From Isoetes taiwanensis (Eukaryota; Streptophyta; Lycopodiopsida; Isoetales; Isoetaceae), in assembly GCA_021234155.1 (NCBI GenBank), contig JAJEKV010000081.1:124001-188000 (forward strand): 64,000 nt of DNA. The letters are read 5' to 3'. The notes beneath the pieces are model-generated. The model was not told the DNA's origin, did not search any database, and worked only from the letters and a program-made list of their open reading frames with translations. A program made the position numbers and the translations under genes. Positions 5,991-63,890 of the stretch are shown here, piece by piece (position 1 is the stretch's first letter; every line of letters starts with the position of its first letter).

Positions 5991-5991
5991 T

Positions 5992-11834: not shown

Positions 11835-12205
11835 TAGGAAGGAAGGAATATCCTTGGTCCTCAAGGATCATGGGAACATGTGTATTTTGACACGTATTCC
11901 CTTCCTAGGTCATTCGGTGGCCATGGTTTTGCCATCTCGTCCCTTTAGAAACCCGTAGCTGGATCACAATGTGATCATGGTTTCATCCTCTAGTCCCTTT
12001 GGAAACCCGTTCCCTGTATCACCTCATGATCATGGTTTTCATCCTAATCCATTCAAAAACCCCTTCTCTGAACCACGCCGTGATCATGCTTTTGTAGCTC
12101 ATTCTTTTGCAGACGTCCTACTTGTCATCTATATTGATGAAAGTCTCTAATTCTTTACTCTTACATAACTGACCTCACATTGACTCCACTAATCCTTCTG
12201 TGCCT

Positions 12206-16139: not shown

Positions 16140-17067
16140 TAGACTAAGGAGAAAAATTTAACCTAGAGAGGTCGTTGTTCTGACAGGGCCAGCCATACCA
16201 TGAAATAGTTAACAAGGCCAATAAAGGGCCGACTCTTAGCCACCCCTCCTTATTATCAAAGTAGTATTATTCATGATTAGCCATAATGGGTGTATTGTCT
16301 ATTTATGGAGCAAGGTCTCCAGAAATGCAAGAGCTAACCTGAGGTTTATATTGCATAAGATCTCTAATGAAAGATCAGAGTGTGAGTTAAGGTGGTACAA
16401 TTGTTAGAAGCTTGCTTCTAATTAGATTTACATGGGGTCTATAGTTATTACCATTGTATTGATATAATCACAAAGAAACAGGATCTTCTGCAGCATGGTA
16501 TTCTTAGATCTAAGATCAAGAATATGGTACTAATAGCAAGATAAGAACCTTAAGACCATTAGTCAACGATGCCCCAATAGCTGGACTCAAGAAGGTCAAT
16601 GAAGACATCACATTAGTCGAGCTAGAACTTCTAAATGGATTAGGAATGCATCCTATATTCCATATAAGTCAACTCAAGAAAGCAATAATGTCCAGGGATA
16701 GTGACAATACTCCTAGCCCTTAGCCCTGAGCTAACTCCTGAAGCTATTATAGACACTCGCATTCGGAGGATGTGCAATAGGAATATTGCAGAGTACTGGA
16801 TCTTATAGCGAGATCCTCACCTGAAGAGTACATGCAACCAAATCCTCACCTGACTCAAAACCCATGGAGGCACGGAAGAATTAGTGGAGTCAATATGAGG
16901 CCAGTTACGTAAGAATAAGAATTAGAGACTTTCATCAACATATTGTGATCTAGGAACGGGTTTCTAAAGGGATTAGATGGTGAAACCATGGCCACCGGAT
17001 GACCTAGGGAATATGTGTCAAAATACACATATTCTCATGATCCTTCGGGACCAAGTATTTGAAGGGG
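16140..17067 (+). mobile_element. 3' end of a plus-strand gypsy chromovirus
   Basis: From about 16540 the plus strand is homologous to the inverted 12180-12540 region: HPIFHISQLKKA, then a degraded chromodomain with NRNIAEYW-like sequence and stops, then EEYMQPNPHLTQNP. A shared 3' untranslated part follows to a polypurine tract AAGGGGAGAGG (about 17055-17065) directly before an LTR start. Upstream 16140-16540 shows no clear coding sense. Only the last part of this element survives. Confidence 0.75.
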
Positions 17068-19564: not shown

Positions 19565-19633
19565 ATAATGGTGCTTCACTTGCATCGCAATGGTCTCTAA
19601 GAGACCATTGCATCGCAAGTGAAGCACCATTAT
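19565..19633. repeat. Near-perfect 69-nt palindrome
   Basis: The arms ATAATGGTGCTTCACTTGC and AATGGTCTCT pair with their inverted copies around a centre TCTCTAAGAGA with essentially no loop. Only three consecutive positions (ATC against GAT) fail to pair in about 34-bp arms. It could be a MITE core, a small-RNA hairpin or a recombination product. Confidence 0.85.
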
Positions 19634-23174: not shown

Positions 23175-23729
23175 CATCGAAAAAATTAGTGGCTAAACTT
23201 AGCTAAATGGCGAAATTTTAGCCTTGTTTGAAAAAACATTGGCTAAACTATGGCCCTTTTTGGGCTAAAAAAAATAAAATTTTAGCCAAGTCTATTTCAC
23301 GCCCCACCTCCATTTCGTCCAACTTTAGCTAATCGCAAGAAAGTGTAAGTGCCAAAATTTGGAAAGTTTAGCCAAAACTTAGAAGCTTTTACGTCAAATT
23401 TTAGTGTACTTTAGCCAAATTAACTTATAGCCTTTATATTTATTATGGTCAGTTAATATTTCAGTCTTAAATTAGTGCAAAATAGTCAAAAGATAGAAGA
23501 TTTTTTCTTTTTTAAATAACAGTTTAGCCAAACGTAAGAAAGTATAGGTGGCAAAATTTAGAAAGTTTAGCTAAACATTAGAAGCTTTCACCTCAAATTT
23601 TGGCATACTTTAGCCAAGTCTATTTCACCACTTTGAATATAAAAGTTCCTTATGTCCTCATGGATGCTGCCAATGTGGCATGACGTAAAAATACTATCTA
23701 TCTATCTATCTATCTTAATTTTTTCCCTG
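23175..23729. mobile_element. hAT-type MITE with 8-bp target duplication
   Basis: A 555-bp insertion in the LTR is flanked by GCCCACAC on both sides (23167-23174 and 23730-23737). Its ends are inverted repeats: CATCGAAAAAATTA at the left, and CAGGGAAAAAATTA read inward from the right. An 8-bp duplication with CA-GG-type ends is the signature of hAT elements. It has no ORF. The interior is rich in GGCTAAA/TTTAGCC phrases. A related copy lies at 31601-32204. Confidence 0.9.
23655..23715 (+). mobile_element. SINE 3'-end fragment with (CTAT)n tail
   Basis: GGATGCTGCC, then TGGCATGACGT, AAAAATACTATCTATC and several CTAT units match the 3' end of the SINE at 10939-11159. No tRNA-like head is present, so this is a 5'-truncated copy. 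It sits near the right end of the MITE. Confidence 0.8.
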
Positions 23730-25207: not shown

Positions 25208-25240
25208 ATTAGAGTTTTTTTGAGAGGTCAAATAAGGGCC
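25208..25240 (+). repeat. Left terminal inverted repeat
   Basis: Thirty-three bases beginning ATTAGAGTTTTTTTGAG and ending AAATAAGGGCC. It pairs with the inverted right end (34404-34434), apart from a 2-bp AG insertion. Confidence 0.8.
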
Positions 25241-25726
25241 TTGTAAGAATATATTAGGGGGGCCGCCACGTAGGATCCCGAACCTAGCTTTCCCCCCTCC
25301 ATACCTAACTTTCACTCTCCCCTATAACCTAACTACCTAACCTCCGAACCTAACCTCCGAACCTAACTTTGCAATCATTATTTCGTAACGACCTGAATAT
25401 TTGATGATTACATCTAAGATTTTCATTTTCTCACCATCGAGCTTCAGCGCCATCGAGCTTCATCGCCCTCGCGCCATCGAGCTTGCCATCGCGCCATCGA
25501 GCGCCAACGATCTTGCCATCGCGCCCAAGCATTGTTTGAATTCGAATTATGGCGGATTCTTGCCAGCAAATAGAGCGAAATTTCTCTGTTTGTTGGCAAG
25601 AATCTTCCTAATTCTAAGCTCCGCTCCGGTTCTTGGTCTTTTGCAACGTCAATGGCAAAGGTATTTGGTTTCCGAGTTGTCATTGCATTCCTTTGAGTGT
25701 TCTTGGTTCTAATACTTCTGTTTCAG

Positions 25727-26983
25727 GATCAAACTAATTTCGAGGGTCAATTTAGAGTGCAAGTGCCAAAAGGATGCCTGCCTTACAGGAATAAGTTCAC
25801 TTGGAAGCAACCAATAGATGAAGATGCATTGCGAGCTTCTGGAGCCATGAATATAGACCTCTGGGCTAAAGGCCAACTGTATCCTTGTGATCCTTTCACT
25901 CGAGCCCATCCAAACTTCCACTCTGCATCCGGTCTTATTGAATTTGCTTGTAAGGGACAGCAAGGGTTACTAGGTTACTGTAATAATTTGGTTAATGGTA
26001 ATACTGATCCACATTTGCGTGCCATGTATAACCACTTTATCAGATGTTAATCAGCTCCAACAGACGAACTACTTTCTGTCTCAACAATGCCGCAAGCTCA
26101 ATGAATTGGAGGTAGAAAATCAGAAATTGGTGACGGAGATGAAATCACTGCAGCAAGGAATAAAGAGGGTTGCGCAAGAAAATGATTCCCTTCACAAGCG
26201 AGTCAAACGCTTGAAAAGAACTCCACTGGGGATCAGGGAGAGGGCAAGAAACCTGAAGCCCATAAATATATTAGCCCATGGGGGTGGAGGCTAAAAAAAA
26301 AGGGTCATGGCTATTAAAAAGCTTGTTGATCCAAATCTTGCAGCCCGTTTATTAAAGAAATTAGTTACTAAAGATGATGTATTGAGAATGTTAAAGCTTC
26401 CTGGTAGCATTCAACTTAGGAAAGCTGTAGTACAACAACTGTTGCAGGAGTTGGGGAACAGTCAAACCTCAGAATCAGTGCAAGAACTGTGTGACAATGT
26501 CGGAATAAGTAGGCAAGCTTATATTGCTTTGTTCAGATGCTTGCAGGATGGCCTTAAACAACAAGGCATTACCAAAACTATTCTACTACCAAGGATGGCT
26601 AGTGTGAGGACTTGTAGGTCATCGAGAAACAGACAAGTGCAAGAGCTTCTTGGTGATATGTATCAGCTGACCAGCAGTGTCAATTTGGATACATTGCCAT
26701 CCTATACCAAAGGTAAGAAGAAGTCGAAGTTTGGTACAGAGGTTCAGTTGCGAATTCCTTACAGCAGATGTGTCAATGGTTTTACAGAAGGATCGAGTCC
26801 AAATGGGTGAAGAAATCACGGAACCAGAGTGAATCAACACTTGCTAAGTTGTTTAGACAAAAAACCCAGCGGAAAAAAAAGAGGGAAGCTTGGTATAAGT
26901 CCGCAGCTGTTGAGCGATCAAGGGAGTGGAGATCAATGAGATGTAGGCAAGGCAAAGGTTATGTCCGTATTGAGAACTCTTGA
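25727..26983 (+). pseudogene. Coiled-coil, basic-tailed unknown protein (interrupted)
   Basis: An exon starts after TTGTTTCAG at 25727 and reads FEGQFRVQVPKGCLPYRNKF and RASGAMNIDLWAKGQLYPCD. It continues into a second stretch after TTTATCAG (about 26048) if GTAATACTG is used as donor, which keeps the frame. That stretch is a coiled coil with Leu spacing (LNELEVENQKLVTEMKSLQQ, then ENDSLHKRVKRLKR). A TAA at 26292-26294 is followed in the same frame by IKKLVDPNLAARLLKKLV and a helical region to about 26725. There the frame must change to reach a very basic tail (FRQKTQRKKKREAWYKSAAV) ending at 26983. I do not recognise the family; a DNA- or RNA-binding role would fit the tail. The stop and shift suggest decay, unrecognised introns or read-through. 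Confidence 0.55.
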
Positions 26984-27074
26984 TAATGTCTCTACTGTAA
27001 AAGAGTTGGTTTATTTATCAGTTCGATAGTGCTCAATGTACGAAATGCTGTATTGTAAGTAAACTGGATGCATG

Positions 27075-27400
27075 TATTGCGCATCGTGGCCACGGTGCAA
27101 AATAGGCCCTTCAATAATTTATAACTGAGTCGATTTCGAACCGTGGCTACGGTGCGAAATAGGCCCTTCAATAATTTGTAACTGAGTCGATTTCGCACCG
27201 TGGCTACGGTGCGAAATATGGGCCTGTAACTAAACTGGATCCACGTATTTTGCACCGTAGCCACGGTGTGAAATAGGCCCTTCAATAATTTGTAACTTAG
27301 TCGATTTTGCACCGTGGCTATGGTGCGAAATATGCCCTTCAATAACTTGTAACCGAGTCGATTTCGCACGTGGCTACGGTGCGAAATATGGGCTTGTAAC
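27075..27400. repeat. Hairpin repeat cluster 1
   Basis: Six copies of a palindrome with arms TTTCGCACCGT and ACGGTGCGAAA around GGCT or AGCC are spaced about 60 bp apart by the linker AGGCCCTTCAATAATTTGTA. The cluster lies between the 3' end of the plus ORF (26983) and the 3' end of the minus ORF (27643), that is, between convergent genes. Confidence 0.92.
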
Positions 27401-27642
27401 TAGAGAATATTAACATATTAGAGAACATATTAATATATTAGAGAACATATTAACACGGTATCATATGAATTATGTATGATAGATAGCAAAGGTTACTAGA
27501 GACCACGGCAGTATGTCCCTAGTAACCTTCCCCTAGGTTCCTAACACCTTCCCCTTCCCCTTTTCCTTCCCCTGCGAGGGGTAACCCACGCAGCTGGATT
27601 AGGAAACCAGAGCTCACGCGTATCCCAGCTTGATTCTTCCCA

Positions 27643-28137
27643 CTATATGGGGTACCTAGTCATTAGAAAAAGTAATTCCGCGTGATGATACTCACGGAAG
27701 AAGAGCGGACTCAACTCCACAAAGTTGTTGTACTCGTTATAGTACATCCTAATAAGGCCATACATCTGTCCCTTACAAATTTCATGAATGAACTCTGATA
27801 TGTATTGATCCAGAGAGTATGCTAAATAACCAGCACGAAGAAGAGGCCTCAATTGCTGTAGCATCTCGTCCAAATAAGGAGGGGGTTCAAGAATTCCCCT
27901 CATTGCAAGTCTCTTATAACATTCAGATGGATTAATTTCCATCAGTGGCTCATGACCACAATCAAATCGCTCCAGAATGAAGTTGATCAACTCCATTGCA
28001 AGCTCCTTGGTGGGACTGTGGTGCAACCTCCACTCCAAGAAATGGTCAAATAGCTCATCAGTTTCAGGCCGCACAGAATGCCTGGGACATGCTTGCAGGC
28101 CTTCTGGAGTAGCCCAGGGAGGATTGGGTCCAATCAT
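27643..28137 (-). CDS. Unknown helical protein, paralogue 1
   Basis: An open frame of 164 codons runs from ATG 28137, chosen because similarity to the second copy begins there. It starts MIGPNPPWATPEGLQACPRH, continues with FDHFLEWRLHHSPTKELAME and LINFILERFDCGHEP, then GILEPPPYLDEMLQQLRPLL, AGYLAYSLDQYISEFI, and ends LFLMTRYPI-stop. It is acidic and aromatic-rich, predicted mostly helical, with no signal peptide or membrane segment. The protein coded at 29154-29701 is clearly related (WADPEYLQACGR, LINFIIDRY, GLLEPPSDLEDRLEQLKDML, GFMAYSLDHYV). Two paralogues conserved at protein level imply a real family that I do not recognise. Upstream is a long pyrimidine-rich strand on the coding side. 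Confidence 0.7.
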   Translation of the reverse strand: MIGPNPPWATPEGLQACPRHSVRPETDELFDHFLEWRLHHSPTKELAMELINFILERFDCGHEPLMEINPSECYKRLAMRGILEPPPYLDEMLQQLRPLLRAGYLAYSLDQYISEFIHEICKGQMYGLIRMYYNEYNNFVELSPLFFREYHHAELLFLMTRYPI

Positions 28138-28149
28138 TTGCAAAAGCAA

Positions 28150-28665
28150 GCAAGGATCACCGACGGAGCAAGGAACAAGGAGCAGAGCAAGGAACAAGGA
28201 GCAAGAAGCAAGAAGCAAGGAACAAGACCAAGTAGCAAGGAGCACGAAGATTAAGTAGCAAGGAACAAGGATCAAGATCAAGTAGCAAGAAGCAAGGAAC
28301 AAGGAAGATCGAGGAGCAAGAAGATCAAGGAACAAGGAAGATCATGGAGCAAGGAAGCAAGGAACAAGATCAAGTAGCAAGATCAAGAGCAAGGAACAAG
28401 ATCAAGTAGCATGAAGGAGCACGAAGATGAAGTAGCAAAGAACAAGGATCAAGATCAAGTAGCAAGGAACAAGGAAGACCAAAGACCAAGAAGATAAAGG
28501 AACAAGGAAGATCAAGGAGCAAGAAGCAAGGATCAAGATCAATTAGCATAGAACACGGAACACAAGGTGAGAAGTGAAAGCAAGGCGAGAACACGAGAAG
28601 TGAAAGCAAGGTGAAAACATGGAACAAAGGTGAGAAGTGAAAGCAAGGTGAAAGAATTTATAGCT
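28150..28665. repeat. Purine-rich degenerate minisatellite
   Basis: About 500 bp of almost pure A/G/C without long T runs, built from variants of AGCAAGGAACAAGGATCAAG and AAGATCAAGTAGCAAG. It lies directly upstream of the minus ORF at 27643-28137, so the coding strand is strongly pyrimidine-rich there. It may be a promoter, a leader or a triplex-prone tract. Hydrophobic ORFs through it are compositional. Confidence 0.85.
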
Positions 28666-28789
28666 ACGAATCCAATAATGTTGAAGTATAATACTAATAC
28701 TGTTGAAGTATAATACCAAGAATGTTGAAGAATAATACCAATAATGTCGAAGAATAATACCAATAATGCTGAAGTATTATACCATTCGA

Positions 28790-28960
28790 TGGTGGCGAAA
28801 TAGGCCCTTCAATAATTTGTAACTGAGTCGATTTTGCACCGTGGCTACGGTGCGAAATATGGGCCTATTTTCGCACCGTAGCCACGGTGCGAAATAGGCC
28901 CTTCAATAATTTGTAACTGAGGCAATTTCGCACCGTGACTACGGTGCCGAATATGACCAT
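28790..28960. repeat. Hairpin repeat cluster 2
   Basis: Three palindromes of the TTTCGCACCGT / ACGGTGCGAAA type with the same AGGCCCTTCAATAATTTGTA linker as cluster 1. The cluster lies downstream (3') of the minus ORF at 29154-29701. The middle palindrome carries the loop as AGCC, the complement of its neighbours' GGCT, so it is inverted relative to them. Confidence 0.9.
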
Positions 28961-29153
28961 AGAACAATCACATGAGAAAATACAAGGAAAATGGTAGAAG
29001 AAATCATTCAATTACACTAAAAGTGTAAGATTGCCAAGATAATACATGATAATATAAGGATGTTACTTAATTACACGGAAATCACTTGCCTATATACTTA
29101 ATTTCTATGAAAATCTTTATACCAGTTTATACACATATTCCAATGGAGTATCT

Positions 29154-29701
29154 TTACCTGTGATATGTACGTATTATGTGCTGTGTGCTATGTAGCCATA
29201 GGTCACGTGTGTCCCAAGGAATTGTATCCCAGGTGGGGAATTTAGATAGTAACCACAGGATGTTGAAGTCAAGGGAACAGATTAGGAGCTGGCCAATATC
29301 CACAAAAGATTTGTGATGGAAGTTGTAAAGTTCAATGAGGATATAAATCCTATTCCTTTCACTAGTAGGAATGACCAGAGGCACATAGTGATCCAGAGAG
29401 TAGGCCATGAAACCATGGAAAAGCATGTCCTTCAACTGTTCTAGCCTATCTTCTAAATCTGAGGGGGGTTCAAGAAGTCCCAAAGCACTTAGAGTGATCC
29501 TTGCAGTGGAGGGAGATGATGAGTATAGCGATCGATAATGAAGTTGATCAGCTGCCTTGCAAGCTCTGTGGTTGGACCGTGACGCCATCGATGCTCCCAA
29601 AAGTTGCTAAAAAATTCATCAAAAGTGCACGTATTTATTCTGCCGCATGCTTGCAGGTATTCCGGATCAGCCCAACGAGGATGTTCTTGCAAAGTTACCA
29701 T
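29154..29701 (-). pseudogene. Unknown helical protein, paralogue 2 (frameshifted)
   Basis: From ATG 29701 the frame reads LQEHPRWADPEYLQACGR, then FDEFFSNFWEHRWRHGPTTE and LARQLINFIIDRYTHH, and stops soon after. A different frame then carries on with LSALGLLEPPSDLEDRLEQL, GFMAYSLDHYVPLVI and IYILIELYNFHHKSF to the stop at 29154. Both halves align in order with the product of 27643-28137, so one frameshift at about 29470-29530 (or a small unspliced intron) explains the break. Compared with paralogue 1, the C-terminus is about 25 residues longer. Confidence 0.65.
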
Positions 29702-29714
29702 TTGCAAGAAACTA

Positions 29715-29850
29715 GTGGAGCAGATAAGGAACAACTAGTGGAGCAGATAAGGAACAACTAGTGGAGCAGACAGGGAGGCAAGGAGCATGCAAGAAAGGAG
29801 CAGACAGGGAGGCAAGGAGCAACAAGAAGCGGACAGGGAGGCAAGGAGCA
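29715..29850. repeat. Purine-rich short tandem repeats
   Basis: Three copies of AACTAGTGGAGCAGATAAGG-like sequence are followed by three of GGACAGGGAGGCAAGGAGCA-like sequence, directly upstream of the frameshifted minus ORF. The position and purine strand bias mirror the tract upstream of the first paralogue. Confidence 0.85.
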
Positions 29851-30048
29851 TGCAGACAACGACAATGAATGCATAGATGCCTATTTAAAGAGAAACCAGG
29901 TATATATACTATATACGTACATTATATTTACATGTGTATTTTGTGCATTATGCTCGTATATATAACCAATAATGCTGCTACATTGCATGTCAATAATTTT
30001 GTTCGATATAAGTACAGATCCATTCAATGCAGAAGGCATCCATTTGCT

Positions 30049-30331
30049 ATGTCTCGGCCTGGTTATTCTTATTACAGGGGGTCTACCTTGCCTCCTCGTC
30101 CCGAAGATATGGACTCCATTACTTGCACTATGACATATAATGATCTTTATAGATGTTCTCAGAGGGGTATCCCCCTTGATCCCTGGCTGGAAGGAGTAGC
30201 AGAGGGTCGAAATCGTTCTTCCAACGGGTTTTATCGTGTTGCTATCCACCTATCGGGTTCCAGAGCATCGCGTCTATGAGATTAATTGCATCACTCAACT
30301 ACCTGCTCATGATGATCTCGATTGCGAATGA
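30049..30331 (+). CDS. Small unknown ORF, uncertain 3' end
   Basis: ATG 30049 opens a frame MSRPGYSYYRGSTLPPRPED, then TMTYNDLYRCSQRGIPLDPW, to a stop near 30280. A better-looking continuation, YRVPEHRVYEINCITQLPAH then DDLDCE-stop at about 30331, lies in another frame. A small intron or indel near 30235-30260 is therefore possible. No known family is recognised, and there is no signal peptide or membrane segment. It is divergent from the 29154-29701 frame with about 350 bp between starts, and convergent with the histone-like ORF across hairpin cluster 3. Confidence 0.45.
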
Positions 30332-30534
30332 ACTTCTGCATTCATGTATGCTATGCCTCTTATATGAGTTCTAAATTCTGTTACTAGAATATTTCAGACA
30401 TTCGCTAGTTATATATAAGTATGTAACCATAAGTGATACATGTGATCCATCTGTTTACCGCATATTTTCAATTTGGAAAGCTCTTGGCCATTTTTCTTAC
30501 ATGTAGATTCTAAATTCAGATAAGCATTCTCTTC

Positions 30535-30850
30535 CGCGGTGTGTGGAGCGATGCATTTAGCACCGTGAAGTTACGATGTAAATTGCGCCCCAAAAACTTT
30601 GGAACTACTATTTTTTTCCGTGGCGGCGACGCGCGAAAATAGACCTTCCCACAAAGTGTGGAATAGTCATTTTCGCACCGTGACGACGGTGCGAAATAGA
30701 CCTTCCCACTAAATGTGGAATAATCATTTACGGTGCGAAATAGACCTTCCCACTGAATGTGGAATAGTCATTTTCGCACCGGCGACGGTGCGAAATAGAC
30801 CTTCCAACAGAATGTGGAATAGTCATTTTCGCACCGTGCCCACGGTCAAC
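30535..30850. repeat. Hairpin repeat cluster 3
   Basis: About five units of roughly 62 bp. Each has palindrome arms TTTCGCACCGT / ACGGTGCGAAA and a linker TAGACCTTCCCAC then TGTGGAATAGTC, different from the linker of clusters 1 and 2. One unit lacks its left arm. The cluster lies between the 3' ends of the convergent ORFs at 30049-30331 and 31004-31603. Confidence 0.92.
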
Positions 30851-31003
30851 ACTAGTAGATAAATACACAGCCGCAATAAATAGAATAGCAAATAATTACA
30901 GATAAATATAAAACACTCATAACCATAAATATTAAAAACACTCATATATTAACAACCAAAAACACTCATATATTAACAACCCAAAAAGGGTTACAAAAGG
31001 ATC

Positions 31004-31603
31004 CTAGGGGAGGCATCCACGGAAGTATCTAGCTAAGGCATAGTCCCTATCCTGCACAGTAACACGTCCTCTATGCACACAACAGCGGACACTATCCTCA
31101 AAGAGGCTAATTAGATGAGCCTCTGCTGCCTCTTGCAGTATATCCAAGGCCTCTGCTTGGATTCTATTCATCTCCTCCTCCACCATCGGGACGAAGTCTG
31201 CTGCTCTGTCCGTCCTCTTCCTCCTTGCTTCCTTCCTCCTGTCAATAATGGCACGCATCTCCGTGCACGACCATTCTAGCCAAGGCAAGCTTGGGAATCG
31301 AGGTCGGGTGCGTGCACACAAGACCCTAATCTCCCTTAAAGCCTGAGTGACAGGAGGAGCACCCTTTATCTTTTCAGGGCCACCATATCTAATACTAGGC
31401 TCCCCTTCCTTCGGCTTCCGCTTATTCCCAAGCTTATCTGTCTCCTTGGCTGCATCTCTCTCAGCTTGTCTCCAACTAGGAATAAGCTTAGGAGGCTTTG
31501 CTTAGGGTCGGTTTCTTCTAGTGGATTTTAAACACGCATGGGCTTCCCTAGTACCTGCTCCATTTGGGCTTTTGCCTGCAGTGATCAACCTGATCCTGCT
31601 CAT
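31004..31603 (-). pseudogene. Divergent histone H3-like protein
   Basis: The minus-strand frame contains the H3 fold in order: VTQALREIRVLC (alpha-N with the H3 motif ALREIR), FPSLPWLEW (alpha-1 start, compare LPFQRLV), and ALDILQEAAEAHLISLFEDS (alpha-2, compare MALQEASEAYLVGLFEDT). It ends with CCVHRGRVTVQDRDYALARY then FRG (loop 2 and alpha-3, compare [23 protein letters not shown]). Between alpha-1 and alpha-2 it has about 17 extra, Arg-rich residues, a longer loop 1 even than CENH3. The tail is Lys/Arg-rich but keeps no canonical modification motif. A TAA at 31502-31504 interrupts the tail in an otherwise open frame from ATG 31603, and that ATG is made by the end of a MITE. The core has no stop. 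An upstream exon or start past the MITE is possible. Confidence 0.82.
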
Positions 31604-32204
31604 GGAATAATTTAAGGGCTAAACTTAGCTATTTGGCGATTTTTTAGCACATTTTCAAAAACAATTGGCTAAAGTAAATGGAAAAAATTGAGAAAAAAAA
31701 TATAATTTTAGCTTAACTTTTTTTGGGACTGCGCCAACCTTGGAGCTCTTTAGCCAAACGCTAGAAAGTAAGAGAGTGAAATTTTGTATTGTTTAGCTAA
31801 ACCATAAGAACTTTTGGAATGAATTTTGGGCTAGTTTAGCTCGCATCATTCTAGTTTATATGAAATATATGATTAGTAGTTTAGTTTCTAGCATTATGAA
31901 TTAATTTGAGTAGTAGACTTTGCTAATTAGCATTGTTTTAGAATGTTTTCACAAAGAAAATGACTAAAATAAGTGGAATATATTGAAAAAAAAGTATAGT
32001 AATTTGGCTTAATATTTTATGTTGGCCACACCATAGAAATTTTTGGGATGATATTTGGGTTAGTTTAGCTAAATGCTAGAAAGTATGAGAGGAAAAATGT
32101 GTACAGTTTAGCTAAACCACAGAAAGTTTTGGGATTAATATTGAGCAAGTTTAGCTAAAGTCATTATGGCTAATAAGAAATATGCGATTAGTAATTTATT
32201 CCCG
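31601..32204. mobile_element. hAT-type MITE, second copy
   Basis: It is related to the MITE at 23175-23729: both begin CAT-GAA and share GGCTAAACTTAGCTA then TGGCGA. Ends: CATGGAATAATTTA at the left; read inward from the right, CGGGAATAAATTA. The flanks ATCCTGCT (31593-31600) and ATCCTGGC (32205-32212) fit a decayed 8-bp duplication. It has landed on the 5' side of the histone-like ORF and supplies its first in-frame ATG. Confidence 0.75.
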
Positions 32205-32345
32205 ATCCTGGCGAGCATCTTTGGTCCTGGCGATCTTGTCGTCTTTGGTCCTGGCGATCTTCTTGGTCCGGCCCATCCTGGCCGATCATCTTTGGACCGG
32301 TGATCTTGATCATCTTGAACCGGTGATCGCGATCATCTTTGCACT
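32205..32345. repeat. Degenerate short repeats (TTTGGTCCTGGCGATCTT)
   Basis: Five or six variants of TTTGGTCCTGGCGATCTT or TTTGGACCGGTGATC occur in a row. They lie 5' of the histone-like ORF on the minus strand. Open frames through this stretch are explained by the repeat. Confidence 0.75.
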
Positions 32346-32346
32346 T

Positions 32347-32550
32347 CCATATCTGGCTGGCGCCTCTAGCACTTGTTCCTCCCCCTCACCACTGCCTAAC
32401 ATTTGGGAATGTAGTGGTGGTCCCAACGCTGATGACGAGGGGGTTACCTGATTCAGCAGCCACTGGGCACCATGGCTCTGGTCAACCCGCCACAACACCT
32501 GGCCGTGTATAGAGGGGCCCTGTGGTTTCATCATGTAGTAACAACCCTTC
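32347..32550 (-). CDS. Possible short exon or ORF
   Basis: The minus strand from ATG at about 32535 reads MMKPQGPSIHGQVLWRVDQS, then HGAQWLLNQ, after which GTAACC could be a splice donor. It lies upstream of the histone-like ORF on the same strand, so it could be an earlier exon of that gene or an independent remnant. No family is recognised. Confidence 0.25.
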
Positions 32551-32624
32551 AATATCTTATTGTATGTACAATTTAAGACCGTGGGCTCGGTCGGTCTCTC
32601 TTCCATTTTTATGTTGTGCACATT

Positions 32625-32765
32625 TTTGCACCATGGCTACGGTGCGAAAATGGCCCTTCCATATTTTATGAGATCCACAATTTCGCACCGTAAGTACGGT
32701 GTGAAAACACATCCGCAATTTATGTTGTACATAATTTTGCAACATGGCTACTTTAAGTCTTATAT
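32625..32765. repeat. Hairpin repeat cluster 4 (degraded)
   Basis: Two or three decayed copies of the TTTCGCACCGT / ACGGTGCGAAA palindrome (for example TTTGCACCATGGCTACGGTG) occur with a linker GGCCCTTCCATATTTTATG. Arm mismatches are more frequent than in the other clusters. Confidence 0.8.
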
Positions 32766-33153
32766 AATCCAACGAAAGCAAATATTTGCAATTAATATAC
32801 AATAGATCTCCAATTAACAATCACTTATATTTATATTAGATAGATTCATATACAGATATGACTTTGGGTGGCATGCATGATCCCAATTTATAGCATTCTT
32901 CTCTGCGCTTTCCCACCTTACGGCTAGTCTATCATGAAATGGAGGAAATTTAAGTCCGTCTCAAACTCTAATTGCCACCGAACATCGAATAGAGACCACT
33001 TCGCTCTCAACTCTCGACTTTTGAACAGTGATTATCCTTATGAATGTTCAAGTCTATGACAACGGAATGAGTGCCATCATTATCATCTTGTTCTCATGAA
33101 TCGGGCGTTTTTCTTCCTTCCGCGGACATTTAAGCCATCTCCTATACTTAAAA

Positions 33154-33576
33154 GTGACATACAAAGTTTGCTTCGAATGCAATATCATGAAAACCGTGTC
33201 TCGACTTATCCATTCGGTACATTTTGCTCCCAGAGCACTCCAACCTTCAAAAATACACTATCTAAAAACTATCCACCCATTTGAAGGCGTAAACATCTTC
33301 AAGGTCTTCTTTACATTGTCGGCTCTTGAATATGGCAATGAACGAGATCAATTCCTAAATTTACCTTCACATGCCCTCCTCCTCCTTCTCCTTCAATGCA
33401 CCGAACATTTTCTTGCGACAACTTACCGTGCTAATAAGATAGAAGTGGCATCGAGGCTGCGGTATAATCGGACAGTGGGCAATGGAAGCTCAATTAGCTT
33501 GGATCTTAGTGGAGAGTATTCATACCTCGAACTATATACCCCTTTCTACGAAATATGTCTTGGTGTGCTATCTTGA
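33154..33576 (+). CDS. Unknown 140-codon ORF
   Basis: An ATG-initiated open frame contains MTYKVCFECNIMKTVSRLIH and FKVFFTLSALEYGNERDQFL. It has no recognised domain and no supporting paralogue. It lies in the right part of the inverted-repeat unit. It could be chance in AT-balanced sequence. Confidence 0.25.
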   Translation: MTYKVCFECNIMKTVSRLIHSVHFAPRALQPSKIHYLKTIHPFEGVNIFKVFFTLSALEYGNERDQFLNLPSHALLLLLLQCTEHFLATTYRANKIEVASRLRYNRTVGNGSSISLDLSGEYSYLELYTPFYEICLGVLS

Positions 33577-33599
33577 ACAACAAGCAGCCAATACCTTGG

Positions 33600-34403
33600 T
33601 TGAAAGCAATGGAATACACTACTTATCAAGTGTGAAGAGGCGATGTTCTCCACATCGGATATACACAAACTGAGAGAATAGGAATGAACCGGATAAATGG
33701 CGAACTAATTTAAATATGGATTGCATAGAAGTGCATACTCACAATTTGCTTCTAGCAGTGGGAAAGTTAGGTAAAACTTGCTTATTTTTCTTTTGCCATA
33801 TACATTGGAGTGTATACATGCCTTACTTGTACAAATATCTCTTTGCACGATCGAAATTCGACCACCAAAACCTTCAATGTGAAACATCATTTCTCTCTGC
33901 ATCTTTTTGACTTCGCCATTCACCTCGCATTGCGGGGTTGGAGTGTAACAAAGCTCCGGTCGACACCACGAAGCTTTCAAAGTCATTTTCAACTGTGATA
34001 GAGCTTATAGCCATCTAGTCACAGAATTCAAATCAGAAGGTGGAGCAGAATCGAAATACTAGGAAAGACTACGCGATTTTACCTTGATCGAAGTTTTTCT
34101 GTGGTCGAAACTCCCTTTGGCGCAGGTCGAAGCAGCTCCCGAGCAAACCGAAGCTCCCTTGGCGCGGGCAATCGATCTTCGCGCAAACTCTGTTGAGAAA
34201 AACATCTGAGCGGGAATTGAGGGCGGGAGCTAACGGTCATAATTGCCACGTGTGTAATCTGACACCCGAAGCTACAAGCACGTATATTACCGAAGCTACG
34301 TTCAGTTGACACCTGGAACGGCCAAACCAAGGCTCGATAAAAAAGTTCTTTACAAGATCGGCTCCCCATTGGCCGCAAGCTTTTTGACGTGGCATCAATT
34401 AAG
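33600..34403. other. Right interior of the inverted-repeat unit
   Basis: No firm gene is seen. A minus frame at 33705-33992 has CYTPTPQCEVNGEVKKMQRE and RDICTSKACIHSN, which looks protein-like but matches nothing I know. The phrase CCGAAGCT(C/A)C recurs at 34100-34310 in Arg/Glu-coding sequence. Confidence 0.35.
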
Positions 34404-34434
34404 GGCCCTTATTTGACCTCAAAAAAACTCTAAT
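34404..34434 (-). repeat. Right terminal inverted repeat
   Basis: This is the inverted counterpart of 25208-25240. Read on the minus strand from 34434 it gives ATTAGAGTTTTTTTGAGG, then TCAAATAAGGGCC. Confidence 0.8.
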
Positions 34435-35861: not shown

Positions 35862-36805
35862 TTAACTACTTCTTATCTTGAAATATGTCTTCATGAACCC
35901 CGCATGCCCGGCTATGGGACTGTTGTGTGTATCGTGGAGTATCAGCTTCCTTACTCCCGAAGATCCTGGTACACACAACTTATTCTTATGATATAGCAGG
36001 CTACCTTCCTTCTTATAATGCTTGAAGGTCTCCCTTTCCTTATCTGTTCTTGCCTTTTTAGAGAGGCTTGCCCATAGCTCCTTAAAGTCGCCATCTGATG
36101 GCAATGTTTCTTCAATCCTCTTGCCATACTCACTTGAGAGAGTCGATATGGCATTGCAATGGGTTCTTGTCTCGAATGGCCTTCTGGAGAGGGCATCTGT
36201 AACTACATTCAACTTGCCAGGTTTGTAGACTATTTCGAAGTCGTACTCTTCGAGAAACTCCATCCACCTCCTTTGACTTAGATTTAGGAGTGGTTGCATG
36301 AAGATGTACTGGAGACTTTGGTGATCTGTATCTAGTTGGAACTTTCTTCCCAACAAATAGTGTCTCCAGATTCTCAAGGCCCTCGCAATGGCCAAAAGCT
36401 CTTGGTCATGAGTCGAGTAGCATTGCTCTGCATCATTCATCTTCTTGGAGTCGTATGCGACTACTCTTCCTTCTTGCATGAGGATTGCTCCTGTTGCTAG
36501 CTTGCTAGCATCTATCGCCACTAGCTTATCCTTGCTTGGATCCGGTAGGATGAGGACCGATGCTGTGGTTATTGCCTCTTTGAGCTTCTCAAAGGAGGCT
36601 TGGACATTCTCGAACCAAGCCTTGGTGATGTCCAATAGAGGGGACGCCCACTTAGCGAAGTCTTTCACGAACTTCCGATAATACCCTACCACGCCGAGGA
36701 AGCTTCTTACTTCGCCCACTTTCCTTGGTGCCGGCCAATCTACTATGGCTTCAATCTTTGCCGGATCAGTGGAGATAGATGTCACTACATGACCCAAATA
36801 GCATT
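35862..36805 (-). pseudogene. Gypsy RT end, RNase H and zinc-binding region
   Basis: The frame begins [20 protein letters not shown], then [20 protein letters not shown] (RT thumb). RNase H follows with [15 protein letters not shown] (Asp), [30 protein letters not shown] (Glu), [11 protein letters not shown] and [10 protein letters not shown] (Asp). The zinc-binding HH region [20 protein letters not shown] ends at a stop in 35862; its CC pair continues in 35849. Upstream of 36805 the open frame is cupin sequence, not RT. Confidence 0.92.
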
Positions 36806-38747
36806 CGTACTTATTACTATAGCATCGAGTTGGCAATGAAAGAGGAAGGTAACATTGACAAAGAGACGAAAAGGCGAAGGGTGATATCCCTCGCCTTAAG
36901 ATTCCTACCGATGTGGAAGAAAGCAATGCCAAGTATCTCTACCCGCTCTTCTTGGTCATTGTAAAACTAAAATGCATGTCCGCAAGATATGGCCCTTATA
37001 TGGAATTTGTGATGCTCTCGATGAAATATACGACGCCCCATCGTATACCTCTTGGGAAATCCCCCATTCGGCAAGGTCTGCCACACTTGCCCTCCATCTA
37101 TCCCGTCTTGGGATGGCCCGGACACGGGAAGGAGACACGAAGATGTCTTGCGCGCCTGTCTCCTATGGGCTCCCATACAGCAGAAGCATAAATATAAACA
37201 TCAGCACTAGCAATAACAATACAAGCATCTACCTCGAAAGATAGTGCCATCCATCCATCCATAGATCCATCATAGACATCAATATGTCATCCATCACATG
37301 ATCTCCTACCCAGGCTCAGATTCATGGGGAAAGTAGACTGACAGCTGGAGTCTCGAGATAGAACAAACTGAGTTTATGACAATGACTTGGTTTGGCAATA
37401 GACAATGGCTAGGATTGACCACTCTATGCGCCCCTCCCATGAATGCTTTGCAGATACGATGAATTAGGCTTTGTTATGACTATAATCTGCCAGAGATATA
37501 ACCCCTTGATGTCACCCAATAAGGCTACTCCGGGTTCCCCTGTCCGATAACATAGGAAGGGTTGCATGTTCCCTTTCCAGAACCCAGTGGTCTGATAGGT
37601 GGCTGCAGGATCCTGAGGACGCACGTCCTTACCCAAATGAACTCCCCAAAACAAGAACCAGACCAACACTTGCAACTCTTATGGTCAGGGCGACACTATA
37701 ACTAAAGGGTCTAAACTAGAACCATCCTCTACACAAGGCTACTAGGTCTCTAACTCCTTTCCTAATACAGGAGGTGCAAACATGATCAACCAACATTGTC
37801 TACCCACATAACGCGATAAATAATAAGAATAATATCTAATCCTAATCGCATGCACCTAACTTACAATTAAGGTTCATTGATTAGGGTTCGAGATCCAAAC
37901 TAAGGGTCCTAGAATGGCTCTACTAGAGATACATGATGCTAACTCATTTGGACCTAACTTCCAGATGATCTACCAAGGAAACTACTCTAAATACCTACTC
38001 TAGAGGATCTTCCACCTGCTCCTGGCATCTCCATCGCTCTGCGAGTGGTTTGAGGTAGCTAATGTGCACATGCTCCTAGAGCTGTTGTGCTATGCTATGC
38101 TATGCTATGCTATGCTATGCTATGCTACGTTGCAGTAGACGATTCTCGAATGGAGTTTTGAGCGCGAACAGGGTTCTAGGACGGTTGAAGAAGAAGAATG
38201 GCATAGGGTTAGGGTTTGGCCATTAGTAGGTTCGGGTTGCCATGTCATGCCATGTGGCTCCAATAGAGTGCATCCATGTGGCAGGTTGCCAATAGGATGG
38301 AACCATGTGGAAATAGTTCCATACCTACGGTTAGCTAAGTTATGTATGATGACTTAGCCATGTTCCCTTCGACACACTAAGGTATACAAGGCTAGTAAGG
38401 TAGGCTTATATGGTAATGTGGCCTAAAATATACATATTTACATCATATATTTTAGGGGAACGTCACAGAATTGACTTCTCTGAGCAATGATGACACCTAT
38501 GATTCCATAACCTATCACGATGGTCCTCAAGCAACCGACACTGGAACATAAAGGAGACCAATCCATTAGAGTCAACGGCAATTCGATCTGCATTGAATCC
38601 AAACTTTTCTAGCATTGAGGACTCTTCCATATTCTTTCTCTGTAGTCTACCTCCCTCACTCTCTATCTCAGTCCTTGGCTGTCGAGCTTGGATAATGCCT
38701 TAGAGAAGAAGGACAAGAACGGCAATTAGGAATTTGTGCATGGCCAT
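36806..38747 (-). pseudogene. 11S-like cupin gene, copy A (broken)
   Basis: Exon 1 (38747-38468) starts MAMHKFLIAVLVLLL. A TAA stop then falls inside the signal peptide where copy B has Tyr. The rest is still recognisable: ARQPRTEIESEGGRLQRKN and GFNADRIAVDSNGLVS. A solo LTR (37022-38467) follows, then a second cupin piece (36990-36806) matching copy B. That piece is cut off where gypsy RT sequence begins. The C-terminal cupin half is absent. Copy B lies about 0.8 kb upstream on the same strand, so these are tandem duplicates. The stop, LTR and truncation together leave no functional product. Confidence 0.82.
37022..38467 (-). repeat. Solo LTR in cupin copy A
   Basis: On the minus strand it starts TGTGACGTTCC (38467) and ends CGTATATTTCA (37022), so it has TG...CA ends and is 1446 bp. 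No polypurine tract or primer site adjoins it. It interrupts cupin sequence that is continuous in copy B (AGTCAATT at the left edge). A simple repeat (GCTAT)n lies at about 38088-38127. It belongs to the same family as 22453-24657. Confidence 0.85.
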
Positions 38748-39513
38748 TTCGCTTGCAGAATCGTACGTTGCCTTTGGCGGAGGACAAGAGGCCTAGCCGC
38801 CAATCCAATTTCACACCCCCATAGCATGTTAGTCACCTACAAAGGCTGCACACATGTACATAAATTGCTTGCCATCAGTAGTTTGACTGGTAGATTAATG
38901 AGTTCATGTCTTCTACGTTTGAGACTCAGAAATAAACAAAATTACCAAAAAATGCATGTAAAAATATGATGTTTGATTGCTAAAACAACAATCTAGATTT
39001 CTTCCCCCCTTTTTTTTTGTTTTGTTCTATAACTGATGCAAAAAATTGCATGCAACAAAATCTATAGATGAGAGTGCGATCTTCTCAATGGAAGCAAAGT
39101 TGGAATCTTCAAATTACAATCTTTTCATTAAGTTATCTAAAAAACAACTCTAACGACCCTCAAACATTTCTTTTTTGTCACGTAAGCTTCAAACGTTTAT
39201 TGAGCCAATGAGTATGGGTAAGCTGCTCGATTGTTGATGCTTACTTTTAAGCTAGGTTTCATATGGATTTCACGTGAATACTTAACATGCCCTTTAAATG
39301 TTGTTGCAACTTATGCAGAGAAAACCACGACAAAGCAAAGTAAAGACAAAGACTACATGAACGCAAGAACATGATGTCAAATATTCTTTCCATTGGACAT
39401 CATCATATGTAAGTCATATATTTTTCATGCTCGACAACATGTTGTGTACTTCGATAGGCACACCACCACATTACAAATGGTGATGGAGAGGAAGAATGAA
39501 GCATATAGAAAAG
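38748..39513. other. Intergenic, between cupin copies
   Basis: No gene is seen. The stretch 39377-39418 downstream of copy B recurs at 20085-20125. Poly(T) and AT-rich stretches are present. Confidence 0.5.
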
Positions 39514-41289
39514 CTATACAGAGCTTCTCCTCTCCCTAGCTGGAAAAATAATTGAATCGCTTGGGCAACGAGATGATAGCTCCTCAGCCACCTCTGTGCT
39601 TGCTCCGAGCACGCTCAACAAGACATCTCTGGGAATGCATGCATGCACGAAATTGCCTACAACAAGAAAGGACGTCGTAGGCTGTATATTCGACATTAGG
39701 AGAAGACAAAAACAAATGAATGGAGAAAGTGAGAAGGGAGGCAACGTGCAAGTTTGAACAATCAATGAAAGTGCAGTGTTGGTTTATTGATCATTATTGA
39801 TCCCTTCAAACGAGTAGAACCCCTCCTCCTCGGCGAGCAACACATGAGTATGGGATCTAGGGATCAATGCAAGGTCTCCCTGCCTCACTTCATCGGCGAG
39901 CAACACATGAGGATGGGATCTAGGGATCAATGCACAGTCTCCCTGCCTCAGTTTCCCTTCGGCGACCCTTTTCCCATTGCTCGAAATGACCTCTAGCCCC
40001 GTGGATCCTTGGATGATGTAAACGATTTTGTCACCATTATGGACGTAGTTTGGTGCAAACATGGCTCTTTGACAACATGAAGAAGAAAGCACATGTAAGT
40101 CAAACCAAACAACTCAGGAAACATGGCTTAGCACCCCCTCTACGCTCCGTCCCTAAAGCAACATGCTCACCCCTTCTAAGCGCAGATAGTGTGTTGCCAT
40201 ATGCAAATGTGCAAAAAAGGGCATCCTTCCACTGTTCACGTCATGGGGATCTCTGTCGTTTCTCACTCTGACCTATGGGAAGCCTGCCCGGAGCTGGTGA
40301 ACAAGGTGGATAGCACGTAGGTTCAATATGGACCTTTGTGGCTGCATATCCTGTAAAACATGGCTCTCTAACGTCATGAACAAAAACACATGCATAAGAT
40401 AAACCAAACAACTAAGGTAACATGGCTTAGCACCCCCTCTACCCTCCGTCCCTAAAGCAATATGCTCACCCCTTCTAAGCCTAGATAACGTGCTGCCATA
40501 CGCAAATGTGCCAAGAAGGACATCCTCCTGTTGTTCACCTCGTGGAGCTCTCCGCCATTTCTTACTCTGAACTCTGGGAAGCCTGCCGCGAGCTAGTGAA
40601 TAAGGTGGGTGGCACCTATGTTCAAGATAGATCTTTGTGGCTACATATCCTGTCTAGAGACCTTGATAATTCTAGTTTGGTTTTGTTGCCTCTCGACCAA
40701 CTCCCGCACACTTTGCTCAGAGATGTCCCACGCTTGAGGTAAAGCATGCGGGCTGAAGGCAGTGGCGACATTGAAGAGGTCAGAGTCCTGCATCCAAGAA
40801 CAACATGTGTTCGTAATTTATTACTATAGGATCGAGCTGGCAATGAAAGAAGAAGATAACATTGACAGGGTGGCATCCCTCGCCTTAGAATTCCAGCCGA
40901 TGTCGGAGAAACCAATGCCAAGTATTTCTCCCCGCTCTTCTTGGTCATTGTAAAACCAAAATGCATGTCTGCGAGGTATGGCTACACATTGCCCTCCCTT
41001 ACACGAAATTGACTTCTTTGGCTAATGGGTGCAGTAATGACACCTATGATTCCGAAACCTCTCACAATGGCCCTCAAGAAATTGACGCTCTGGAACACAG
41101 GGGAGACCAATCCATTAGACTCAACGACAATTTGATCTGCGTTGAATCCAGACTTTTCTAGCCCAGGAACTCTTCCCTATTCCATCTCTCTAGTCTACCT
41201 CCCTCACTCTCTATCTCAGTCCTTGGATGTCGAGCTTGAATAACGCCATAGAGGAGAAGGACAAGGACAACAAATAGGAATTTGTGCAT
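39514..41289 (-). CDS. 11S-globulin-like two-cupin protein, copy B
   Basis: Start ATG 41289 gives a clear signal peptide, MHKFLFVVLVLLLYGVIQA. The 11S N-terminal pattern follows: TEIESEGGRLERWNREEF, GFNADQIVVESNGLVSPVF, to a GTAAGG donor-like site at 41003. Further pieces in order are HPVNVIFFFHCQLDP (about 40840), DSDLFNVATAFSPHALPQAW then SVRELVERQQNQTRIIKVS (40780-40650), and NGGELHEVNNRRMSFLAHLR (about 40580-40500, start of cupin 2). The second barrel reads FAPNYVHNGDKIVYIIQGST and RQGDCALIPRSH (40075-39785). The end is CIPRDVLLSVLGASTEVAEE to the stop at 39516. Such proteins are secretory-pathway storage or cupin proteins. Exon joins are not all resolved: some segments differ in frame over very short distances, so frameshifts may also exist. 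The first barrel core seems to be missing or unrecognised. Confidence 0.72.
39801..39935 (-). repeat. In-frame duplication inside the cupin barrel
   Basis: A 66-bp segment coding RQGDCALIPRSHPHVLLADE is followed at once by RQGDLALIPRSHTHVLLAEE. It adds 22 residues to the strand-loop region of the second cupin domain without changing the frame. The copy at 61040-61140 also shows both units. Confidence 0.88.
40060..40662 (-). repeat. About 300-bp tandem duplication containing a cupin exon
   Basis: The halves 40060-40360 and 40361-40662 are about 85-90% alike by eye. Shared phrases include ACATGGCTTAGCACCCCCTC, GCTCACCCCTTCTAAGC and GGGAAGCCTGCC. The upstream (higher-coordinate) half encodes NGGELHEVNNRRMSFLAHLR. 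The same place in the other half is frame-broken, so only one exon copy is usable. Confidence 0.8.
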
Positions 41290-42608
41290 GGCCCATTTCG
41301 CTTGCAGAAGCATTTGTTGCGTTTGACAGCGGACAGGAGGCCTAGCCACAAGGGCACTCTTTGTATAGACGTCAATAGGCCGTTGCATGCACATGCATGG
41401 CTGCATTCCAATTTTACACTCCCATGGCATGGTGGTTACCTACCATTAGAGGCAATTTGAGATCTCATTTCATCCCCATAAGAATCCTCCAATAGAATGG
41501 CTACCCTCTATAGAAGGCCATGCACATGTATAGAAACTGCTTGCCATTAGTAGTTTGACTGGTAGATTAATGGATTCACGTCTAGGTTTGAGATTTTGCA
41601 GTACCATGGTGTTTAGGGTCTGGGTTCGGGATCGTCTGCAAGACAGCCCTTTGTGAGGACCCTTGAATCAAACAGACAAATCCTAGCAGAGTGTCACAGG
41701 GGATTTTGCAAAGAGATCAGAATAGAAGACCCTGGTCTTCACTCGCCGTCCGGCGTTAACTCAAACGAGGGGCTTCGATTTCACCAAGTGGACGGTCCAA
41801 CTATACTGTAGCATAGGTGATCCCGAAGGACTGCCTCACCGAAATATCCTCGCCGGGGATCCCGGAGGGCAGCATATTCTTGGCCCCCCGCGATCGGCCA
41901 TAGTGGTGATCCCGAAGGCGGGAATAACTTGGCCTATATCGAGGGGCCGATATCGGCCGTGCGTTGGCAATCCTGGAGGAGGGAATCACATCCGCCGGAT
42001 GCGGGGATCCCGGGCATCGAGGTTACCACAGTTGATTTCGGGAGCATTATCCATCACGGCAAGGAGATCCCGGAGGCCGGGATCACATGTTGGTGATTCC
42101 AGATGGCGGGATCACCATGTACTTTTATGGTGATACTGGAGGCGGGGAACACCATAGACGGTCCGGGTGTTTGACGGGAGCGGACGACCGAGATTGGCGC
42201 AGGGCCCCTCACGTGTGTCAGTACGATGAAACAGAGGGGCCTAGAACGCGTTCTATCGAGAGATAGCAGTAATACCGGAGGCAGGTATTTTCACCTCCGG
42301 GATCCCCGAAACCAAGATAAGACTATCATGAGCCACCATGACGTAAGGCAGCTGCTTTAAATCAAGGCAGTAATATGGAATGATTACTTTATTACTGTTT
42401 ATAGTAGGTAACTTACTTGTGTTGTCATAGGTGAAACCGGCTGGATTCCCTACCAGAAAAACACCCTTTCTAGTTTGAAATTACCGAGTGGTTATTATAA
42501 AAGTTTTTATTAATCCAATCCAACCCATTTCTCCGTATACTAGGCTAGCTGTCTGTTTTTAGATCTACATTAAGCGTACTGCTAAACGCAAATTTCAAGA
42601 AGTTGGCT
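41290..42608. promoter_or_regulatory. Divergent intergenic region, cupin / E2F-DP
   Basis: The cupin gene starts leftward at 41289 and the E2F/DP-like gene rightward at 42609, so this 1.3-kb region holds both 5' flanks. It contains a (CA)TGCATG-rich stretch near 41390 and about nine short hairpins between 41813 and 42310. The sequence ATTCCCGC, a perfect fit to the E2F consensus WTTSSCSS, lies on the minus strand at 41918-41925 in one hairpin. Confidence 0.5.
41813..42310. repeat. Array of about nine GC-rich hairpins (GTGATCCCG-GAGG-CGGGATCAC)
   Basis: Variants of GTGATCCCG, GAGG, CGGGATCAC occur at about 41813, 41854, 41904, 41968, 41999, 42064, 42089, 42128 and 42270. Each can fold on itself; the clearest are at 42064 (AGATCCCGGAGGCCGGGATC) and 42089. 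Spacing is irregular (20-140 bp) and the sequences between are unique, so this is not a simple tandem repeat. A second, error-rich copy lies at 63010-63500. Confidence 0.82.
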
Positions 42609-44599: not shown

Positions 44600-45000
44600 T
44601 TCGTACTGCCACGTGGCAGACAATTCCGTTGCAGAATGGTAGTTGAGTCTACCATTCCGCATCTCCGGTTTCTAGCCGGTTAATCCTCTGTTTCTTGCCA
44701 TCCTTTGTTTCTTGCCAGTCAACAATCCTCTGTTACTGGTAGAGCCAAGCCTGAATCGACCCTAGAGCAAGCTTCAATCGACCTGTTAAGACCAAGGCGA
44801 GGGCGAGCTTGAATCTGGTGGCTTGAATCCATAGATCATAGATTTTTGACTGTAAAAAATGATTGTGGCTTCTTTATCTGTTAGGACCAAAGATGGGGCC
44901 CCCGTTTTGAGAAAGGCAGCCATAGCTTGAATTATAGCTTCTTCACCTCGTAAAATGGCTAGTATTGCATGAAGTTAAGCAAGAAAAAGAGGAGCCCAAC
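44600..45000. other. Stretch without recognisable genes
   Basis: It includes short repeated phrases CTCTGTTTCTTGCCA, CCTTTGTTTCTTGCCAGTCA and CTTGAATC. Nothing else is supported. It runs into the tandem array at 45001. Confidence 0.4.
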
Positions 45001-57626: not shown

Positions 57627-57639
57627 NNNNNNNNNNNNN
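57627..57639. other. Assembly gap (13 N)
   Basis: A run of 13 N. The sequence before it is unrelated to what follows; the sequence after it matches 36395 onward. Confidence 0.99.
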
Positions 57640-63795: not shown

Positions 63796-63890
63796 ATGGC
63801 GGGTATGCATAATTCTTCAAAAGATCCTCAACCCACAGAATTGACCCTTGCTCCGTCGACGCCCACAGCTCCGGCACAGAATTTTGATAG
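63796..63890 (+). CDS. E2F/DP-like gene exon 1, second-block copy (partial gene)
   Basis: Identical in length (95 nt) and reading frame to exon 1 at 42609-42703, ending before GTAAACAC. The rest of the gene is beyond the window edge. Flanking introns show only single-base differences from the first copy. Confidence 0.88.

Follow-up and report, generated by a model that had tools for sequence, protein, structure and literature searches.

A decayed copy of a probable 13-kb DNA transposon family with its own histone H3-like gene in Isoetes taiwanensis

In the literature searched, the mobile elements found to carry histone H3 sequence are fungal cases only, and similar elements may be in print. 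One of them is a hAT transposon of Pseudocercospora fijiensis which, in the excerpts available, is 9.5–9.9 kb long, has short inverted ends, occurs in hundreds of copies and contains an H3-like sequence (PMC6710886); another fungal case is listed (PMC3538342), and the accessible portion of a paper on Helentrons mentions histone genes (PMC4067079). Pack-MULE and Pack-TYPE elements, as partial accounts describe them, are also inverted-repeat elements carrying gene sequence. Here we describe a 9.2-kb unit with coding frames on both strands, located at positions 25208–34434 of a stretch of 64,000 nucleotides ("the window") from Isoetes taiwanensis (GenBank assembly GCA_021234155.1, contig JAJEKV010000081.1, positions 124,001–188,000, forward strand), which is most probably a decaying copy, shortened by internal deletions, of a DNA transposon family whose full members span 13 kb, carry several genes and have inverted ends of about 31 bp.

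The family of this unit resembles the P. fijiensis transposon in size, in its short inverted ends and in having an amplified H3-like sequence. In the part of that report available, however, the fungal element has a hAT domain and 8-bp target duplications, and its amplified H3 copies are inactivated by repeat-induced point mutation (PMC6710886), whereas the Isoetes family shows neither that domain nor such duplications, and its H3-like gene is divergent with a low ratio of nonsynonymous to synonymous substitution (dN/dS). The contrast with Pack-MULE and Pack-TYPE elements, as far as those accounts go, lies in the genes of the unit, which recur jointly in other copies, a putative transposase included.

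The unit, its genomic copies and gene 1

An initial annotation made from the letters of the window had described matching inverted ends with a 2-bp indel, and these are confirmed: the two ends (Table 1) match at 31 of 33 positions with a single 2-nt indel (E 1.3e-5 over the whole window), and none of 60 windows drawn from a first-order Markov model, searched with a longer word, held an inverted pair equal to the real one (best 36.5 against 49.1 bits). When the 1.66-Gb assembly containing the window was searched with 693 bp of the left end, 40 matches were scored among 331 candidates, the window itself included, at 89–100% identity, and all 40 begin at base 1 of the inverted repeat. Seven copies were then read, picked for close left ends and, in five cases, also for a nearby H3-like match. 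Three are whole, with both ends within 20 kb (12.95, 12.87 and 13.0 kb), and have the ends and gene order of the window unit; copy C1071 matches to just short of the right end, C907 and C1032 contain other DNA, and in C1034 only the first part matches.

The genes recur together with the ends. Genes 1 to 4, the H3-like gene and pieces of further minus-strand coding ("gene 6") are all present in four of the seven copies; C907 and C1032 carry most genes, C1034 only genes 1 and 2 within the stretch read, and the H3-like gene is at least partly present in six of seven. Wherever a copy could be read from end to end, these genes stand in the order 1, 2, 3, 4 and H3-like, followed by the additional minus-strand coding. 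The earlier suggestion of a large transposon unit is thus borne out, the ends recurring in the genome together with the interior; ends standing elsewhere without it would have spoken against a single mobile unit, and the seven copies read show the opposite, ends with the interior plus more. Likewise, the open reading frames (ORFs) reported on both strands are real, being remnants of what amounts in copy C930 to at least seven genes, if one is counted for the extra frame resembling gene 4 in that copy and one for its additional pieces on the minus strand.

Compared with these copies, the window unit is a deletion derivative of a many-copy element. All seven have an extra 1.25–1.77 kb at window position 26735, where about 1.25 kb of gene 1 is gone from the window copy; the four copies aligned on both sides have 2.75–3.0 kb, absent from the window copy, near 32538 beside the H3-like gene. 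Conversely, about 0.6 kb of the window copy, from 31562 to about 32239, is absent from the five copies aligned on both sides. In-frame stops and a frameshift show that the window copy is decaying.

The exon of gene 1 appears to start after a TTTCAG acceptor. Its remnant in the window has one in-frame stop (26292–26294), and its core region is missing at about 26735/26736, while in C930 the gene is a single 797-aa reading. Among 3300 candidates for this core, 103 places were scored, with 109 matches between them; the main matches are 57–100% identical and include subfamilies at 60–70%. In the C930 reading, the motifs KLDEME (406), AADLKT (504), ACPYC (526) and QGMEKSH (760) follow one another, and the layout of KLDEME, AADLKT and QGMEKSH with CPYC between them is one that we take to resemble a D-D-E enzyme with a zinc-like insert; many of the copies compared at these residues are frameshifted. 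Gene 1 is therefore a candidate transposase, and points to a transposase family absent from Pfam. Its product would act on the inverted ends as a putative transposase, and deleted copies such as that of the window would presumably be moved in trans by it.

At the left end, ATTAG is preceded by G in the window copy but by C in all 11 other copies compared; at the right end, CTAAT is followed by G in four of four cases, that of the window among them. Two readings fit: ends of the form CATTAG..CTAATG that leave no duplication, or a duplicated AT lying within CATG. As to the surroundings, which had been taken for the two parts of one split gypsy element, this is borne out only in part: the right flank is the end of a chromovirus-type pol, and the left flank has one 25-bp motif (22 of 25) in common with it.

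The H3-like gene and a second H3 carrier

The ORF reported as histone H3-like matches Pfam PF00125 at E 1e-12 and, as its best PDB match, H3 at E 1.4e-11, confirming the earlier assignment, and the H3 alpha2–alpha3 histone fold is recognisable in its sequence. The 0.6-kb insert sits within the 5' part of the window gene. Compared with reference sequences, it is identical to plant H3.1 at 45 of 100 aligned residues, and scores 141 over its whole length against H3.1 (at most 46 in 300 shuffles) and 151 against CENH3 (at most 44). For alpha2–alpha3 alone the order flips (131 for H3.1 and 122 for CENH3), so the gene falls clearly with neither. The residues C, H, R and D are kept at the sites aligned with the H3–H3' contact (positions 110, 113, 116 and 123). 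For the unit, protein database searches, one at E 1e-8 and the others at E 10, returned nothing. The structure model of the lone sequence is too poor for a fold test (predicted local distance difference test, pLDDT, 68; predicted template-modelling score 0.30), and a fold search with it named no histone. A canonical H3 tail before the window gene was also considered, ranking first of 950 ATG-led frames (shuffle 0.0035–0.0105), and was rejected because other copies show at this place a lysine-rich linker after a Q/D-rich stretch, and phmmer gave no alignment.

The body of the gene has 150 scored matches in the genome among 5257 candidates, many of these copies being broken. Twenty copies listed without stops and the window copy form 210 pairs, of which the 191 with dS above 0.05 give a median dN/dS of 0.45 (range 0.23–0.86; pairs with the window copy 0.48–0.76), a value lowered by the choice of stop-free copies, raised by any dead copies among them and drawn from pairs that are not independent. 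In a midpoint-rooted tree of 23 rows (19 different), including nine of the 20 stop-free copies and the window copy, the H3-like family is one clade with support 100/100, and the branch leading to it measures 1.01 changes per column. It stands apart from the H3 of the host, that of the gypsy element and the centromeric forms; the CENH3 and CENP-A rows are themselves long. This long separate branch argues that the gene is not a fresh capture of host H3, and the H3-like gene of the element looks resident and selected.

An H3-like protein of this kind would act on the chromatin of the element or of the site that it targets, as the low dN/dS and the retained histone-fold residues suggest. More specifically, it could pair with H4, enter nucleosomes on or near the element or at its targets and aid integration or escape from silencing, the hairpins described below being transcript ends or protein-binding sites, a possibility that we hold with some reserve. 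The H3-like gene could instead be only a passenger or a decoy, retained accidentally or because it mimics a silencing target, with no part in transposition, which would agree with its many broken copies; the dN/dS in the chosen stop-free set and the retained contact residues make this unlikely. Histone marks restrain mobile elements, and a family that maintains an H3 variant of its own, in a genome where a second element bears an H3 fusion, would open to direct test whether mobile DNA edits nearby nucleosomes; mobile DNA may exploit chromatin proteins to its own advantage.

The genome holds a second kind of H3 carrier. A search with a CENH3 sequence gave 150 scored matches of 7073 candidates, and 12 loci were read: five are canonical H3, 97–98% identical to H3.1, and the other seven have a longer frame (291–480 aa open) ending in an H3 domain that is 77–85% identical to it. 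One such fusion protein matches PF00125 at 3.5e-41. The fusion loci, found among L052–L057, L063 and L064–L067, combine an N-terminal part without assigned identity with the H3 domain, and long open frames are seen at many others among the 150 matches listed. Two fusion loci align over 8.3 kb at 87%; the end motif of the family of the window unit is absent from the stretch read of both, and the one compared with C930 (C985) does not match it. In one locus a gypsy-type RNase H domain follows the H3 fusion, 66% alike to that of the gypsy element beside the window unit, while the other stretch ends earlier. No likeness was found between genes 2 to 4 and the N-terminal part of the gypsy fusion.

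In the tree, the fusion H3 groups beside host H3 (clade 88/94, below the 95 mark), so that the two H3 carriers of this genome very likely arose separately. Tentatively, the family could represent a new superfamily of large DNA transposons with an unclassified transposase and no target duplication or one of 2 bp, keeping its own H3 variant for chromatin control, with a gypsy-type element having gained its H3 fusion separately and histone capture having been repeated.

Known transposon classes and other origins

Precise inverted ends common to dispersed copies in different flanks are what a terminal-inverted-repeat transposon should have, and the family shows them; it could not be assigned to a known transposon family. 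Set against the defining traits of the Mutator, CACTA, PIF/Harbinger and Tc1/mariner superfamilies, it is alike in its inverted ends and putative DDE-type enzyme, and differs in gene 1, which has no Pfam transposase match. Membership of hAT (no 8-bp target duplication, no hAT domain), of the Mutator-like elements (MULEs; no long ends, no duplication of about 9 bp, no MULE domain), of CACTA (no CACTA ends, no 3-bp duplication) and of PIF/Harbinger (no 3-bp T-A duplication, no recognisable Harbinger transposase domain) was rejected. For Tc1/mariner, Pfam showed no recognisable DDE transposase domain, and the constant ATTA at the ends is compatible with a TA target duplication. A Pfam scan of the window covered 46 stop-to-stop segments of at least 60 aa from the window unit: as the initial annotation had stated, no transposase, integrase or polymerase is recognised, in 0 of 46 segments above cut-off. 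Only the histone and a DivIC coiled-coil match in gene 1 (31.6 bits against a cut-off of 28.9) stand above it; below are a few others, two of them viral-named (MS2 lysis, movement protein p6).

The assignment to a 13-kb DNA transposon family draws on dispersed copies with the same ends, their shared gene order, the lost gene 1 core and a dN/dS well below 1 in the stop-free set. Several observations weigh against it. The right end was not found in four of the seven copies, within the stretch read. No target-site duplication longer than 2 bp is visible by eye in the three whole copies and the window, unlike in most cut-and-paste elements. Gene 1 of C930 has no Pfam match above cut-off, just weak coiled-coil ones, and no PDB match, so that the label of transposase is drawn from the motif layout, and the downward bias of the stop-free choice adds to these.

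Two other origins were weighed. As a Pack-TYPE element, the unit would be a non-autonomous transposon with captured pieces of host genes, H3 being a recent capture. The lack of an intact transposase in the window copy would suit this, as would the known capture of H3 by a fungal hAT transposon, in the part of that report available (PMC6710886); the same gene set in four of the seven copies read, the distance of the H3-like gene from host H3 (1.01 changes per column) and the low dN/dS among its copies render it highly improbable.

An endogenised viral origin had been offered in the initial annotation as one reading of the histone and the hairpins; a large DNA virus, whole or in part, would then have spread in the genome. 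A multi-gene unit coding on both strands, in which a histone gene is present and hairpins lie close to the ends of genes, would fit it, and both viral histones (PMC9145170) and transcript-end hairpins of Mimiviridae (PMC4402537) are published. According to the accessible portions of these two papers, however, many viral histones are fused doublets and Mimivirus hairpins are not conserved in sequence, unlike those of the window. Among the 46 window segments and ten proteins of copies C930 and C1016, no viral hallmark stands above the Pfam cut-off, with a few phage- or virus-named matches below it; a Polinton/Maverick or endogenous large DNA virus was likewise rejected, on Pfam evidence, for want of a DNA polymerase, integrase, capsid or packaging gene. 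In viral contigs neither gene 1, gene 2 nor the H3-like gene has a relative and the hairpin pattern has no match, and prokaryote contigs yielded nothing for gene 1 or the hairpin, absence from these collections being no proof against a viral origin. An 18-base pattern of the inverted ends matched once in a viral contig (L001), with one match estimated by chance. The composition of the unit is not foreign (42.9, against 33.6–97.7 in nine other stretches). With no hallmark gene, and with short, exact inverted ends lying in flanks that differ between copies, which looks like transposition, the viral reading finds no support and is very doubtful indeed.

Hairpins, genes 2 to 4 and other features of the window

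Table 1. Features of the unit (window coordinates)
Feature	Position	Strand	Basis and remarks
Left terminal inverted repeat	25208..25240	+	repeat search; identical start in 40/40 scored genomic matches
Gene 1 remnant (putative transposase)	25727..26980	+	frame scores; 797-aa reading in C930; extra DNA here in 7/7 copies
Hairpin array, 57-bp period	27076..27391		between 3' ends of genes 1 and 2
Gene 2, unknown paralogue	27643..28137	-	paralogue comparison; coding homology runs beyond stop to ~27607
Purine-rich tandem repeats	28165..28562		upstream of gene 2
Hairpin array	28797..28955		downstream of gene 3
Gene 3, gene 2 paralogue	29154..29701	-	frameshifted in window; one reading frame in C930
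Gene 4 (76 aa)	30049..30279	+	ORF list, frame scores
Hairpin array	30614..30850		between 3' ends of gene 4 and H3-like gene
Histone H3-like gene body	31004..31501	-	Pfam, PDB, genome copies; in-frame TAA 31502–31504 and insert beyond truncate N-terminal part
Insertion ~0.6 kb (approximate limits)	31563..32239		copy alignment; contains repeat 31601–32198, partly also at 23175–23286
Deletion point (approximate)	32538..32539		2.75–3.0 kb lost here, including additional coding pieces of the minus strand ("gene 6"); 4/4 copies aligned both sides
Fourth hairpin site	32624..32710		core search, folding
Right terminal inverted repeat	34404..34434	-	repeat search; identical right end in the 3/7 copies where found

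A hairpin repeat shared between the ORFs had been noted, and its core TTTCGCACCG..CGGTGCGAAA, with close forms (10-base cores), is indeed found at four sites, all inside the unit and nowhere else in the window. Stem arms are 91–100% alike between array types and spacers 55–65%, as measured on nine well-kept hairpins and six chosen spacers, with degenerate hairpins omitted; in folding, six of six stretches beat all their 200 shuffles each. Three of the four sites lie about 95–335 bp beyond gene stop codons, and none stands in the spacer from which genes 3 and 4 diverge, a placement at gene 3' ends that, with few spacers, is suggestive only, and that recalls the hairpins near gene 3' ends which, beside an H3-like gene, the unit has in common with giant viruses. 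An Rfam scan of the window at gathering scores gave no match, the replication-dependent histone 3' stem-loop included. Two further signals were not retained: in nine chosen hairpins the wobble pairs lean to one strand (seven plus, one minus, one mismatch), but these numbers are too small and not independent, and the inverted-end motif shows no significant link to a hairpin spacer (0.008 as the best value in 12 comparisons).

The unknown paralogues reported in the unit correspond to genes 2 and 3, whose likeness over 175 aligned codons scores 361 against 139 ± 31 in a neutral simulation that ignores the choice of frames to fit, with 0 of 2000 simulations as alike; their dN/dS is about 0.59 at a dS of about 1, a few codons being counted twice. 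The structure model of gene 2 has a pLDDT of 42. Copy C930 has a second frame resembling gene 4 by eye, absent from the window. A codon-use scan trained on the retroelement frames of the window compared the six frames of ten pieces. The annotated frame came first in seven of them: the exon, body and tail of gene 1, gene 2, gene 4, the body of the H3-like gene and the stretch preceding it. It did not do so in the coiled coil of gene 1 or in either piece of gene 3.

Elsewhere in the window, 36398–42813 and 57640–64000 are gypsy-related and 88.5% alike over about 6.4 kb, the second lying next to a 13-N gap (57627–57639), and copia-type pol pieces (integrase, RVT_2 and related domains) occupy 5965–8307 on the plus strand. 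A 38-bp inverted pair (11976–12013 and 16953–16990, 4.9 kb apart) lies beside larger inverted repeats, and a 69-bp near-perfect palindrome is found at 19565–19633. Tandem repeats of about 345 bp, 4.8 copies in all, span 44994–46613, and an inverted pair of about 86 bp (49215–49299 and 50526–50608), 90.7% alike and 1.2 kb apart, is perhaps a small inverted-repeat element.

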